This document shows, piece after piece, positions 32,517-38,959 of a DNA stretch of 64,000 nucleotides. A model generated the notes under the pieces. It was not told the DNA's origin and searched no databases. It saw only the letters and a program-made list of their open reading frames with translations. Every line of letters begins with the position of its first letter. The stretch's first letter is position 1. The translations under genes were made by a program, and so were the position numbers. This DNA comes from Nautilia sp. PV-1 (lineage in GTDB: Bacteria > Campylobacterota > Campylobacteria > Campylobacterales > Nautiliaceae): NCBI RefSeq assembly GCF_004006315.1, contig NZ_CP026530.1, positions 377,618-441,617 of the forward strand. The letters are read 5' to 3'.

Positions 32517-32951
32517 ATGAAAAAAATGATTATGGCGCTTGGACTGGGTGCCGTTTTATTTACTGGATGTACTCAGATGTATAATTCAAATGAAGTTGCG
32601 TTAAGCGATGTGAATGTAATGTATACCTATAAAACAGGAGTTGTTACAAGTGTAAAAAAAGTTATTATCAAAGATAACGGAACCGGAGTAATGACGGGAG
32701 CCATAGCCGGAACGGTAATAGGCAGTCTTTTTGGAAACGGAAAAGGAAACGTATTGACTACACTTTTAGGAGGCCTTGGAGGAGCTTATGCAGGATATGA
32801 AGCCGATAAGGCAAACGGCGAGGAACTGTATATAAAACTTGACGACGGCAGAAATATCGTAGCTATTGTCAAAGGCGTAAACATTCAGGCCGGAGATAAA
32901 GTAAGAGTGGTTATTGACGGCAACAGAATTATCAGAGTCGAAAAAATATGA
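32517..32951 (+). CDS. Glycine-zipper outer-membrane lipoprotein (SlyB/17-kDa-like)
   Basis: The 144-residue protein has a lipoprotein signal with lipobox LFTGC (Cys near 18). A glycine-zipper pair follows (GVMTGAIAGTVIGSLFGNGK and GGLGGAYAGYEADK), then a small beta domain. ATG 32517 is chosen because AAAAGGA precedes it; an earlier in-frame ATG lies inside the -10 box. Its stop overlaps the next gene's ATG by 4 bases. Confidence 0.83.
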   Translation: MKKMIMALGLGAVLFTGCTQMYNSNEVALSDVNVMYTYKTGVVTSVKKVIIKDNGTGVMTGAIAGTVIGSLFGNGKGNVLTTLLGGLGGAYAGYEADKANGEELYIKLDDGRNIVAIVKGVNIQAGDKVRVVIDGNRIIRVEKI

Positions 32952-35116
32952 TATTAAAGGTTTTCAGCACCAAAAGGGAGATAAGAGAGTTTGTAAAAAG
33001 CCAAAACGACTCATTTCTTCCTAAACTTATTACTATAGGCGAATTTTTAGATAAATGTATAATTGTAAAAAACGCTTCTTTAATAGACGGCGATTTTAAA
33101 AAAATTTATTTATATAAAGCTCTGGAAAATATTGATATAGAAAAACTGGGTTTAAAAAAAGATTTTTTAAATTTTTTTAAGAATGCTGAATTTATTATCT
33201 CGTTTTTTAACGAGATTTATCTTGAGAAAAGATCCATTGAAGATATTGAACTGGCAGACACCTACCTGGAATATGAAGAGCATCTGTCTGTGCTTAAAGA
33301 GATTTATTATGAATATAAAAAACTGCTTAAAGAAAATTCCCTGTATGATAAAACCGTTTTGGAAGAATACGAAATAAACAGAAACTTTTTTGAGAATATA
33401 GATAAAACGGAAATATATTTAAGCGGATATCTGCCCAAAACGGATCTGGAAATTATAAAAAACATACCCGTGCCTGTGGAAATGGTTTTCAGGGTTACTC
33501 CGTATAATAGAAATCTTATACGAAAAATGTTCGGAGAATTTAAATTAGGAGAATACAGGTTTGATATACATCAAAACATAGTTTTGGATTATAAGCCCCT
33601 GCCTGATATGGCGGATGTTGAAGTTGAGCATTTTTCAAGCAGAATAGCTCAGACTTCATATATTTTTGCCAGTATAGAAGAAATGGTCGCTAAAGGTGTT
33701 AAACCAGAAAAAATAGCAGTAATTCTGCCGGATGAGACATACAGCAGGTATTTGAAACTGCTGGATACGAAAAACAATCTCAATTTTGCCATGGGGGAAA
33801 GTTTTACACATTCGCAGATTTATATTATGCTGGAGGCTGTTTATAATTATACTGTGCAAAAAGATGAGGTTTCTTATCTGAAGGCAAAAGAAAAAATTGA
33901 AGAATTTGAAAAACTGAACACTTTTGACGAAATACTGCAGTTTGTGCTTAAGCATGCAACGTTAAAAGAAAGAAAGCTTCTTGATGAAGAGATTTATAAA
34001 ATTTCAAAGCTGGATGCGTTAAAACATTATTCCAAAGAAGAAATACTGCATTTTCTTTTGGAAAGATTTAAAAACCTTACTTTTGACGACGTTAAAGGCG
34101 GAAAAGTTACTGTTATGGGCGTGCTTGAAAGCAGAGGTATGAAATTTGACGGAGTAATTATAGCCGATTTTAACGATGAATTTGTGCCTAACGTGGGAGA
34201 TAAAGATTTCTTTTTAAATTCTGCAATAAGAAAAAAAGCAAAACTGCCTACCAGAAAAGACAAAGAGGCTCTGCAGAAAAACTATTATTATAATATTTTG
34301 CTTAATGCCAAATTTGCCAAAATTTCATATGTGAAAAACGAAGAAAAGGAACCCAGCAGATTTTTATACGAACTGGGTCTGGATTTTGGGGAAAACAGGG
34401 ATGAGTATTATTCCCAGGCCGTTTATAAAACAAGCAAACCTGAATTTTATGAATATAAAGGAGCGTTTGAGCTTCCGGAAACAATCACCCCTACCAAGCT
34501 CAAAACGCTGCTTGAGTGTCCTATGAAATATTATTTTTCGTATGTATTAAACATTAAAAACGATGAGGATAAAGATTATTTCGGAAGCAGACTGCATAAC
34601 GCACTGCAGATTGTTTTAAAAACACAGCCCGGTTCTGCGGAAGAGTATTTCTCACGTATAATGTCGGAACTTTTGAAAAACTGTTCTAAAAGAGAGTATT
34701 TTGAAATTAAATCGGAGTGGGAGGATAAAATAAAAAAATTCGCCTATATAGATTTTGAAGAACTGACAAAACCTGCGCAGTGCGAAATACAGCTTCCTTC
34801 CGGAAAATATAAAAATTTCATCATTCAGGCAAGGGCCGACAGGGTCATAGGAAATAAAATTTATGATTATAAAACTTCTAAAAAACAGGATTATTTGAAA
34901 GATTTAACGCAGGCAGAAGTATATAAATATCTGATGCCTGAGAGCGAAATATATTATTGGGACATATACAACGTAAAACTCATAAAAGTGGATCCGGATA
35001 TTAAAAGTCTTGAAAAAAAGCTTGATTCTATATCAGGAGAGATTAAAAGAAGCGAAGAGAAAGATATGTGTAAATTCTGTGATTACAGATTTGCCTGTTT
35101 ACACTTTGAATCTTGA
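32948..35116 (+). CDS. AddB-like PD-(D/E)XK nuclease with Fe-S cluster
   Basis: The 722-residue protein lacks a Walker A motif but keeps UvrD-like remnants ([20 protein letters not shown]). The C-terminal nuclease has [29 protein letters not shown] and QAEVYKY, the order of catalytic His, Asp, Asp-x-Lys and Gln. Cysteines in LLECPMKY and [11 protein letters not shown] form a 4Fe-4S site as in AddB. It should be the second subunit of the AddAB helicase-nuclease for double-strand break repair. AddA is not in the window. Confidence 0.8.
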
Positions 35117-36271
35117 CACTTCTTTATAAAGTTTGCTGAATGCGGATTTTAGCATATCCGTAATTTTTGAAATCGATTTTGCTATTGAAACGTTTTGTGT
35201 GGAAATATCGGTAAGTTTTTCAGTGTGGGTCATGAGCTGTTTTGCTTCAAACGCCATGATGGTAACGTTCTTAGTAGCGTCTTTGGCATATAATATATTA
35301 TCTTTATTCATCTGCAGGATTTGCTCCAGCTGTGTGGTGATTTCGTTAGTATGAGAGGCTAAAACATTCATTTTTTCAGAGTTATTGTTGATTTCATTTG
35401 AGGTTAAATCAATGGTTTGAGTAATGTTTTTGATAATGGTTTCTATATTTACCAGAGAATTAGCGCTTTCTTCCGCCAGTTTTCTGACTTCATCCGCAAC
35501 TACCGCAAACCCTCTTCCGTGTTCTCCCGCTCTGGCAGCCTCTATAGCCGCATTTAGCGCAAGAAGCTCGGTCTGTTCGGTAATACTTGAAATTATCTGT
35601 AAAACGTTTTTTATTTCTTCGGTTTGAGAGTTCAGATTGTGAAGGAGGTTGTTTAGTTCCTGCTCTTTTGAATTTATTTTCATAATTTCATCTGTTGTTT
35701 TGATTAAAGAATTGCTGAAATTTTCTAAAAAGTCGGCTGTTTTTATTAACGTATCTGTAGTTGAAGCTACTGATGCTTCCGTTTTGTCAAGATGCTGTGC
35801 CAGCGTATTGGATATTTTTGAAATTTCGCTTGCTTCCACGTCTGTCTGGTGTATTGTGCTTTTTAGCTGTTTTACAATATTTTCCAGTTCTTTTGTATTA
35901 TTTGACACAATAGAACTTGTGTTTTTTATGTCGATAATCACTTCTCTTACGTTTGAAATAAATTTGTTTATATAATCGGCGGCCTGTTTGATTTCATTGT
36001 GCTGTTTAATACTGATCTGTTTTGTTAAATCACCGTCCCCTTCGCTTAGTTCTTTTGAAATAGAAATGTATTCCTGGATAGGGTTTATTACGTAATATTT
36101 TAAAAGATAATATGCAGCCACCTGAATAACTATGGCGATTATAAGATGTTCAAAAGCCGTGGAGATGAAATCGCCGGGATATTCGAAATATGTGTACAAT
36201 AAAAGAATAAAACTCGTTAAGAGGTTGATTCCAAGCAGTTTTAGGTTAAAGTCTTTGACGATAGAATGCAT
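35099..36271 (-). CDS. Methyl-accepting chemotaxis protein
   Basis: The 390-residue chemoreceptor has two close hydrophobic helices near residues 12-60 with almost no periplasmic loop, then HAMP and a long coiled coil. The signalling tip contains [20 protein letters not shown] and [14 protein letters not shown]. Without a ligand domain it may sense through the membrane or through the adjacent STAS/phosphatase proteins. It overlaps the STAS gene by one base and addB by 18 bases (convergent). Confidence 0.92.
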
Positions 36272-36549
36272 CAGATCTTCCTTATTTTAAATTTTTGTGT
36301 AAGTTTTAAAGCGTCTAAAAGTTCATAAAGCGTATTATCGTAAACATTTATCATAATTGCAACCCCTTTGTCGTGAAGTCTTAAAAGTTCCCCTATAATA
36401 CTTGAAGGAAGTGAAAAAGATTTAATATTTAATATGATTTGAGGTTCGTTTTCTTTGGAAGTCAGAATCTGTAACAGTTTCTCAACGTCAGAAATTGTTA
36501 CTACAGGAGAATTTATATTTATTTCGTTTCCGTTTATTTCTATTTTCAT
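36271..36549 (-). CDS. STAS-domain protein (anti-sigma antagonist-like)
   Basis: The 92-residue protein has STAS topology: beta strand [32 protein letters not shown] with a serine in the place of the phosphoacceptor, and [20 protein letters not shown]. It should be the partner of the HATPase domain encoded just upstream. Starts overlap by 4 bases. Confidence 0.75.
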
Positions 36550-38087
36550 TGTTTAACCTTTAAGAAGATTTTAATTGCCGTTCCGTTTTCGTTAAAAAAC
36601 AGTCCGTAGGAGAGGTGCTTTATGATTTTAATCCCCCTCCCGTGATATTTTTTGTAAAATGCGTCTTTTATTGTCTGAACATCGAACCCTTTTGTTGTGT
36701 CTTCGTATTCGATTTTCAGCCAATTTTCATTTTTGCTTAATTTAATTTTAGCGAAAAATTTTTTGTTTTCATCATTTTTAAGCTTCTTTTTTTTATGTTT
36801 CGGAATATCTTTGTTTTCAATATTTAAGATACCGTATTCGTATGTATTAGTGAGTATTTCGTGTAATATCAGATGAATCTGTTCAATCAGCGGGATATTT
36901 TGGGATATCAGTTTTTCAAGAAAATGATCGATTGCATTTTTATTTAATTCCAGCGTATCTTCAAAAAGAGTTTGAAATCCGTTTTTCTCTTTCGTAATAT
37001 AAACGAGGCAGGTATCGTCAATCTGATGGGATTTGGCGTAAAAGTCCTCCATGAGCTCTTTTAAAAAAGTGATTTTGGGAAATATTGATTTAAGCCTTTT
37101 ATAATAAATAGTTTCTTCGTAAGGTGACTCAAAAATACCGTCGCTTGATATCAGCAGTTTGTTTTCTGTTTGAATGCTGTCGATGTGTGTTTGTTGCGTG
37201 TTTACTGTTATTGGATAATTGTTTGCCGGAATTATGTTTTTGGAAGAAAGTATCGGAGGATTCCCGAAATTGGAATAATAAATTTTGTCATCTTTTATAT
37301 ATACAAGCGTAGCGCACAGTATTTCATTGTCTAACAGGATGTTTTTAATATAGTTTACGAAATCGTTAACCAGTTTTTCGAAGTTAAAATCATTATATTC
37401 AATGGCTTTTTTTATTGAATGTTTTAAAAAGGACAATGCGTTAAATGATGTCAAAGAGGCACCTAACCCTTTACCCATGGCATCGATTACACCTATAAAA
37501 TATTCGTTTTTTGAAAGTTTTTTGGTATGAATAGTATCACCCGTGAGCATATCTTTCGGAGCAAAAAAAGTTTCAAACAGGAAATTCTCGTCAAAAAACA
37601 TTTCAAGTTCATTTTGCATTATTTTGTTCTGTTTTCTGTGTATTATCTGTTCCTGTTTTTCTTTATAGCTTAGAAGTTTTTTCAGCTCTTCTTTTTTTTG
37701 AAGCTCCTTTTTGACGAATTTTCTTATGGTCGTAATCATATTTAAAAGCGCTTTTAAATCTATAAGAGAAATATCTTTTGTAAAGAAGTTGTCATAACCG
37801 GTTTCGAGAGCTTGTTCTTTAAGATTCGGATCATTGTCGCCGGTAATCATTATTTTATATGTATATGGCAGATGATGGTTTATTTTTTCCAGGACTTTGA
37901 GTCCGTCTGTTTCTTTTAAATGATAATCTATAAAAACCACATCGGTATCAGTGTTTCCGTTTTCAAAAAAAGTGTAAAAAGAAGAAGGTTCGTTAAAAGT
38001 ATATATATCAATATAGCCGAGTTTTTGCAGCTGTTTTTTGATATACGACAAGAAAACTTTGCTGTCGTCAAGTATTACGATTTTCAT
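36546..38087 (-). CDS. Receiver / SpoIIE phosphatase / HATPase fusion protein
   Basis: The 513-residue protein joins three domains: an N-terminal REC domain (D7-D8, phospho-Asp D54 in VFIDYH, T82, K104), a SpoIIE/PP2C-type phosphatase (about 160-370; VIDAMGKGLGASL, LLISSDGIFES, QIDDTCLVYI), and a C-terminal HATPase kinase-like domain (about 390-513; LHEILTNTYEYGIL, HGRGIKIIKHL). This is an RsbU-like phosphatase and RsbW-like kinase in one chain. It is first in an operon with a STAS protein and a chemoreceptor. Confidence 0.88.
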   Translation of the reverse strand: MKIVILDDSKVFLSYIKKQLQKLGYIDIYTFNEPSSFYTFFENGNTDTDVVFIDYHLKETDGLKVLEKINHHLPYTYKIMITGDNDPNLKEQALETGYDNFFTKDISLIDLKALLNMITTIRKFVKKELQKKEELKKLLSYKEKQEQIIHRKQNKIMQNELEMFFDENFLFETFFAPKDMLTGDTIHTKKLSKNEYFIGVIDAMGKGLGASLTSFNALSFLKHSIKKAIEYNDFNFEKLVNDFVNYIKNILLDNEILCATLVYIKDDKIYYSNFGNPPILSSKNIIPANNYPITVNTQQTHIDSIQTENKLLISSDGIFESPYEETIYYKRLKSIFPKITFLKELMEDFYAKSHQIDDTCLVYITKEKNGFQTLFEDTLELNKNAIDHFLEKLISQNIPLIEQIHLILHEILTNTYEYGILNIENKDIPKHKKKKLKNDENKKFFAKIKLSKNENWLKIEYEDTTKGFDVQTIKDAFYKKYHGRGIKIIKHLSYGLFFNENGTAIKIFLKVKQ

Positions 38088-38212: not shown

Positions 38213-38959
38213 ATGGCAAGAAAACCAAGAGTTAACGATCCCGGATTTTATCATATAGTAAACAGAGGTGTTAACGGTGCAGAAATTTTTAACGAAAAAG
38301 AAGATTTTTTTAAATTTATGGAACTGATGCTTAAAACTAAATATGATTACAAAGTCGTTTTTCACGCTTTTACCATTCTTCCGAATCATTACCATATATT
38401 ATTAGAAACGACGCTTCCGAATCTCAGTGAAGCTATGAGGTTTTTAAATTCGGCATATGCGGCCTGGTATAACTATAAAACAGGAAGAGTAGGGCATTTG
38501 TGGAAAGGAAGATTTGAAAGTTATATGATGTTTGACGACAACCACAGCTGGAAAGTTATAAAATATATAGAAAGAAACGCTTTGGTGTTAGGGCTTGTAG
38601 ACGATATTAAAGATTACGAATACCAGTCACTTGCTCTTAGATTGAAAAAAAACAAATTCAATGAGATTATCGAAGGCAGTATGATTTTCCAAAAACCTCT
38701 TGAAGAATATATAGAATGGCTTAATAAACCTCTTGAAAAATTTGAACTTGAAGAGATATATAATGAGCCTAAGATTATTAAAGTGGACGGAGAGCTAAAA
38801 GTAATACGCAAAAAAATAAGCGACTTTTTTGAAGAGTATGAAGAAAAAAAAGATGCAATTATGGCTGCAAAAGAAGCCGGATACAAATATACCGAAATAG
38901 CCAGATTTCTAGGTGTAAGCAACGGATATATAAATAAAATATTAAAATCTGAAAATTAA
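38213..38959 (+). CDS. REP-associated tyrosine transposase (RAYT, Y1_Tnp)
   Basis: The 248-residue protein has the IS200-like Y1 transposase fold: FYHIVNRGVNGAEIFNEKED, the His-hydrophobic-His motif LPNHYHILLE, and the segment GRVGHLWKGRFESYMM typical of RAYTs. The C-terminus adds an HTH (YTEIARFLGVSNGYINKILK). Such proteins nick and join single-stranded REP hairpins. The nearby palindrome and its dispersed copies are the likely substrate. It stands alone and ends in a terminator shared with gap. Confidence 0.88.
   Translation: MARKPRVNDPGFYHIVNRGVNGAEIFNEKEDFFKFMELMLKTKYDYKVVFHAFTILPNHYHILLETTLPNLSEAMRFLNSAYAAWYNYKTGRVGHLWKGRFESYMMFDDNHSWKVIKYIERNALVLGLVDDIKDYEYQSLALRLKKNKFNEIIEGSMIFQKPLEEYIEWLNKPLEKFELEEIYNEPKIIKVDGELKVIRKKISDFFEEYEEKKDAIMAAKEAGYKYTEIARFLGVSNGYINKILKSEN

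Follow-up and report, generated by a model that had tools for sequence, protein, structure and literature searches.

Partner switches in which a receiver domain (REC), a PP2C-type phosphatase domain and an RsbW-like kinase domain reside in one polypeptide chain and act on a STAS protein are known from HsbR of Pseudomonas aeruginosa and CrsR of Shewanella (PMC6482189). The known targets of the HsbR-HsbA and CrsR-CrsA pairs are FlgM, HsbD and RpoS. In 2022, it was proposed that REC-PP2C-kinase proteins could act via their STAS target on a chemoreceptor, with Nautilia profundicola AmH as the example, and experimental proof was said to be lacking (PMC9239204). We analyzed a stretch of 64,000 nucleotides of the deep-sea vent bacterium Nautilia sp. 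PV-1 (contig NZ_CP026530.1, positions 377,618 to 441,617; herein called the window), which contains a three-gene operon for a REC-SpoIIE-HATPase fusion protein, a STAS-fold protein and a chemoreceptor of the methyl-accepting chemotaxis protein (MCP) type. The architecture and the proposed logic are the same as in the pathway described for N. profundicola AmH and other Campylobacterota, and the N. profundicola operon is almost certainly the same as the one described here. As far as sequences and structure models can tell, the operon probably, although far from certainly, encodes a partner-switching module with the chemoreceptor as output, in which the phosphorylation state of the STAS protein would set the signaling state of the receptor. 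The three genes are the following:

36546..38087, reverse strand: gene of the REC-SpoIIE-HATPase fusion protein, 513 aa (open reading frame, Pfam, AlphaFold2, structure matches)
36271..36549, reverse strand: gene of the STAS-fold protein, 92 aa (open reading frame, AlphaFold2 and structure comparison)
35099..36271, reverse strand: gene of the chemoreceptor (MCP), 390 aa (open reading frame, Pfam, alignment, hydropathy)

A first-pass annotation of the window had described this arrangement, with three domains in one protein, followed by a STAS protein and an MCP without ligand domain, and the coordinates are as it claimed; the overlaps of 4 bases between the fusion and STAS genes (ATGA, 36546-36549) and of 1 base between the STAS and MCP genes (TGATG, 36271) can be read in the sequence. 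The same annotation regarded it as unusual that one chain combines a phosphatase and a kinase for a single STAS protein, and considered the link to chemotaxis to be new. The former is ordinary, as HsbR, CrsR and the RsbU-RsbW fusion Rv1364c (3ke6) precede it, and the latter had been published in 2022. What we describe is a known kind of switch with a previously predicted output, and to that one-sentence prediction we add how strong and how broad the association is, as well as specific residues, based on the co-occurrence of the genes, their breadth across families and phyla, split and permuted versions, a patch in the receptor, the absence of REC domains, and a change in the receptor tip. No experimental study of this operon was found in open-access full texts.

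The comparison with known systems is instructive. Like HsbR and CrsR, the fusion protein combines REC, PP2C and an RsbW-like kinase in one chain and has a STAS partner, but the third gene encodes a chemoreceptor, the STAS protein is not seen by Pfam, and a glycine of the kinase G1 box is replaced in Nautiliaceae. SiaABCD of P. aeruginosa likewise comprises a PP2C phosphatase, a HATPase kinase and a STAS-fold protein, and our PP2C and STAS models resemble SiaA (Z 22.9) and SiaC (Z 10), respectively, but its enzymes are separate proteins, whereas they are fused here, and the system targets the diguanylate cyclase SiaD (cited in PMC9239204). The Sigma-B/Rsb system involves a sigma factor gene, and among the open reading frames and Pfam matches none was found in the operon or its neighbours. 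Genes for GGDEF, anti-sigma or FlgM proteins are also absent from the operon, and no histidine kinase gene adjoins it in the list of open reading frames. In case of CetA/CetB of Campylobacter jejuni, a receptor with transmembrane hairpin and HAMP domain but without ligand domain is co-transcribed with a cytoplasmic protein that presumably provides its input, which resembles the arrangement here (PMC2628428); however, CetB is a PAS protein, whereas the neighbour here is a STAS protein and there is no PAS partner, so that the likeness is one of logic only, and the CetA-CetB interaction itself is merely inferred in that work. In Stage 1 F7 clusters of gammaproteobacteria, an McpA-like receptor, an anti-sigma factor antagonist and a serine phosphatase are also adjacent, but within a large che cluster, and no function for antagonist and phosphatase was found in PMC7184735. 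CheS of Sinorhizobium and Agrobacterium is a STAS-only protein in chemotaxis, as here, but it binds CheA and affects CheY dephosphorylation, and a partner-switch kinase/phosphatase operon is not described for it (PMC12654446).

The association of the three genes is conserved. The first-pass annotation had asked for a search for the operon in other genomes, and this search found the fusion and STAS genes in 7 of 21 Nautiliaceae genomes, with an orthologue of the receptor as third gene in exactly the same 7 (63-86% identity; the next best MCP anywhere falls to 181 bits). As the three-gene operon recurs in these genomes, it is not a chance arrangement. Several Nautiliaceae genomes without the operon have a completeness of 96-100%, and its presence varies even within a genus, which indicates that fusion, STAS and receptor genes come and go together. 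In two of the genomes (G004, G008), the fusion begins after the REC domain, and STAS protein and receptor are retained; an apparent REC loss in the fusions of G009 and G049 was discounted, as contig ends cut them, and only the former two count. A split version exists in the Nautiliaceae genome G011 (L206:1404-7090), where genes for a STAS protein, a NIT-MCP, a separate HATPase and a REC-SpoIIE protein are followed by one for REC-GGDEF-EAL, and a link of the switch to cyclic di-GMP (c-di-GMP) is possible in this operon.

More widely, 80 loci from named GTDB genomes were gathered by fusion similarity alone, and since Sulfurimonas dominates this sample, the loci are not independent. At 48 of the 80 loci, the same strand carries an MCP gene no more than 300 bp away from the fusion or STAS gene, and 44 of these 48 also have a STAS gene on the same contig stretch. 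In the vicinity of the fusion, MCP genes reach a density of 99 per Mb, compared with about 5-12 per Mb genome-wide (12 genes in the 1.79 Mb single contig of PV-1; 5-17 genes per genome in others counted), and a density of 25 per Mb beyond 2.5 kb was not taken as background, as it includes receptors 1.5-3.6 kb from the fusion. The MCP-paired loci show at least five gene orders, and their receptors are of the NIT, CZB and PAS-split types or have no ligand-binding domain. The most frequent arrangement is STAS, MCP with NIT sensor, fusion (Sulfurimonadaceae, Sulfurospirillum), and the remaining ones are fusion-STAS-MCP with CZB, fusion-STAS-PAS-MCP, MCP-fusion-STAS (also in Deferribacterales) and fusion-STAS-MCP. 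Partner-switch receptors occupy at least two distant places of the MCP tree, and the presence of an MCP next door changed at least nine times on the fusion tree. Many Sulfurimonas fusions have no REC domain and keep STAS and MCP, a permuted fusion starts with the HATPase in G024, another one with the order HATPase, REC, SpoIIE adjoins STAS and MCP genes (L213:4766-7024), and STAS-MCP pairs without any fusion nearby exist at L209 and L219. Across these variants, REC, kinase and phosphatase occur in one chain, as separate proteins, in permuted order or not at all, and STAS protein and receptor can therefore be regarded as the constant core. Co-occurrence, adjacency and STAS-MCP pairs thereby lend good support to the link between partner switching and chemoreceptors that the first-pass annotation had drawn. 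At one further locus (L212:1589-5984), an MCP adjoins a protein with SBP_bac_3, PAS and SpoIIE domains, and no STAS gene was found beside this MCP.

These data also bear on the possibility that the operon encodes an HsbR/HsbA-like switch on flagellar gene expression (FlgM/FliA) or on another regulator, with a receptor that is merely co-transcribed as part of the same motility response. Domain architecture and logic are indeed those of HsbR-HsbA (PMC6482189), but the all-or-none co-occurrence of the receptor, the adjacency in many gene orders and the STAS-MCP pairs without fusion exceed what shared expression would demand, and we consider this explanation rather unlikely.

The domains of the fusion protein are defined as follows:

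37743..38081, reverse strand: REC domain, residues 3-115 (Pfam, alignments; D7/D8, D54, T82 and K104 present)
36990..37598, reverse strand: SpoIIE/PP2C domain, model residues 164-366 (Pfam, alignment, model; match to the SiaA PP2C structure 6k4e)
36558..36974, reverse strand: HATPase (RsbW-like kinase) domain, model residues 372-510 (Pfam, alignments, model)

Pfam matches were obtained for Response_reg (3-115, 3e-16), SpoIIE (194-364, 6e-9) and HATPase_c_2 (400-505, 1e-4), the last of which is below the Pfam cut-off and is backed by the model and by conserved motifs. In the AlphaFold2 model (pLDDT 89.4), the REC domain is followed by a 49-residue helix (108-156), SpoIIE and HATPase, and structure comparison matched the model with P. 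aeruginosa RssB (3f7a) and with the RsbU-RsbW part of Rv1364c. In alignments, the phosphatase metal-site residues D184, D202, D316, D357 and D358 are invariant in all 85 fusions, and the same holds for E410, N414 and E417 of the kinase N-box in all 84 fusions that cover the region.

Pfam and NCBIfam scans of the single 92-residue STAS protein gave no match, and its identity therefore rests on the AlphaFold2 model (pLDDT 93), which matches RsbV as present in its complex with RsbW (6m36_B; Z 11.4 across 89 residues) and also SpoIIAA, RsfB and SiaC structures. The family is overlooked by Pfam, as only 7 of 60 aligned members gave a weak PF01740 match, and searches against PDB sequences with the single sequence or a profile returned, apart from RsbV, mostly chance coiled-coil matches. 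The predicted acceptor residue is located as follows:

36403..36405, reverse strand: codon of Ser49, predicted phospho-acceptor (conservation in 68 of 68; profile alignment to RsbV)

Ser49 is invariant in all 68 sequences and aligns with the serine that follows an Asp in RsbV. We take the phosphorylated serines S56 of RsbV and S58 of SpoIIAA to be its equivalents; S50 as the equivalent of SpoIIAA S58 is ruled out by the profile alignment and by how residues are numbered in the characterized proteins. Neither a second STAS protein of this family was found in the genome, nor was another stand-alone RsbW-like kinase evident there.

The receptor has the following parts:

36092..36250, reverse strand: two predicted transmembrane segments and a short loop, about residues 8-60 (hydropathy, alignment)
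35717..35788, reverse strand: N-arm of the patch, residues 162-185 (common to partner-switch receptors of other families)
35447..35608, reverse strand: tip, residues 222-275 (canonical except QTE for QTN (E235) and ESA for RTQ)
35222..35275, reverse strand: C-arm of the patch, residues 333-350 (also common to partner-switch receptors of other families)

Pfam detected MCPsignal (208-321, 7e-31) and, weakly, HAMP (62-109), and the signaling domain has a CheA/CheW-binding tip with two deviations from the consensus. As the two hydrophobic stretches found by hydropathy (around residues 10-28 and 43-61) are separated by only a short loop, the receptor has no periplasmic sensor and needs a cytoplasmic input. 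Together with the constancy of the STAS-receptor core, this favours the STAS protein as that input.

In an ungapped register set from the tip, extra similarity between the Nautiliaceae receptor and partner-switch receptors with different sensors is confined to residues 162-185 and 333-350, where the mean excess is 0.21, compared with 0.00 elsewhere, a value reached by 0 of 269 circular shifts. This count is descriptive, as the patch was chosen after inspection of the same data. From Tsr numbering, we presume that the patch is level with the adaptation region. In 60 genomes, a profile of its N-arm gave 14 matches at E 1e-15 or better, 11 with an adjacent STAS gene and 3 with none, and the latter rule out a specific docking signature. 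Judged by these profiles, the patch is a subfamily feature that is enriched in partner-switch receptors and neither exclusive nor diagnostic.

How could such a module function? The HATPase domain of the fusion would phosphorylate Ser49 of the STAS protein and the SpoIIE domain would dephosphorylate it, with the balance being set via the REC domain, probably through the long helix between it and SpoIIE. The STAS protein would bind the cytoplasmic part of the receptor in one of its phospho-forms, most probably without phosphate, either at HAMP or at the patch, and this binding would bias signaling to CheA. A receptor that is blind to outside ligands would thus report an internal condition, much as has been proposed for CetA with CetB. 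The genome encodes chemotaxis machinery, with CheW domains in CheA-, CheW- and CheV-sized proteins, CheR, and the 12 MCPs. Outside the window (G000:C1:218315-222507), the gene of a 622-aa protein with two MCP domains adjoins that of a 408-aa protein that carries two CheW domains as well as the sole CheR gene, and a similar double-MCP protein of 617 aa exists in G012:C94. A broader idea, which we put forward tentatively and regard as possible rather than probable, is that partner-switch control is a widespread and ancient chemotaxis input, in which the STAS phospho-state would act through a dedicated patch near the adaptation region as a counterpart of ligand binding and methylation, and would be the sole receptor input in Nautiliaceae.

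Several points weigh against an output through the receptor. The domains, catalytic residues, acceptor serine, and the operon with its conservation can be read from the sequences; both enzymatic activities, the STAS-receptor binding, its direction, the binding form and the CheA output are what we infer. In the G1 box (DxGxG) of the PV-1 fusion, D463 and G467 are kept and the first glycine is Thr465; this position is Gly in 77 of 84 fusions and Thr or Ser in all 7 Nautiliaceae, and kinase activity of the Nautiliaceae fusion is therefore not assured. By alignment, the G1 box is the sole alteration, and the other catalytic residues and the acceptor serine of the STAS protein are intact. As the patch is at the adaptation region and also occurs in some receptors that have no STAS gene beside them, it may reflect methylation or lineage. 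The genome also encodes FlgM outside the operon, so that an HsbA-like target is possible. Finally, many Sulfurimonas partner-switch receptors carry a full NIT sensor, and for this reason the receptor could be the input in Sulfurimonas.

The latter point leads to the reverse direction, in which the receptor would, via CheA, phosphorylate the fusion at its REC domain, and the target of the STAS protein would lie outside chemotaxis, for instance a diguanylate cyclase, FlgM or a sigma factor. Such a pathway is unlikely in our view, since the REC domain is absent in G004, G008 and many Sulfurimonas fusions despite the presence of STAS and MCP, the Nautiliaceae receptor has no sensor domain, and the operon contains no GGDEF, sigma or anti-sigma gene. 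It would nevertheless agree with the complete set of phosphorylation residues in REC, with the lack of an adjoining histidine kinase gene, with the NIT sensors and FlgM, and with the REC-GGDEF-EAL gene that adjoins STAS or phosphatase genes in L206 and L037.

The receptor tip also has to be considered. Among the 11 MCP tips extracted from the genome, the other 10 have QTN, and QTE and ESA are confined to the operon receptor; partner-switch receptors elsewhere have fully canonical tips. The N-to-E change is fixed in the Nautiliaceae receptor, which may indicate an altered coupling to CheA. The receptor might even no longer feed the chemotaxis array and instead serve as a membrane scaffold that localizes or activates the fusion and STAS switch. 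The long stem branch of the Nautiliaceae receptors (2.04 changes per site), which form a single clade with full support in the MCP tree, would be compatible with this, as would the fixed tip changes, but the remaining tip is unchanged and invariant in 7 of 7, and with canonical tips in partner-switch receptors elsewhere a scaffold role is very unlikely.

With regard to neighbouring genes, the 3' end of the receptor gene overlaps by 18 bases (35099-35116) with that of a convergent PD-(D/E)XK nuclease gene (32948-35116, forward strand). Upstream of the operon, 38213-38959 (forward strand) encodes an IS200-like Y1_Tnp protein of 248 aa with weak C-terminal helix-turn-helix matches. Similarly sized proteins adjoin the operon at the equivalent place in G002, G004 and G008, and the gene may be a domesticated RAYT-like gene, with putative relatives that are grouped by size and position.

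Ligands and methylation are what normally tunes chemoreceptors. If a serine-phosphorylated adaptor indeed sets the output of a receptor, internal regulatory networks would gain a direct handle on taxis, and partner switching would gain an output beyond transcription and c-di-GMP. Since Sulfurimonas and its relatives often carry the module, it is testable, with S49 of the STAS protein, the receptor patch and D54 of the fusion REC domain as concrete residues.

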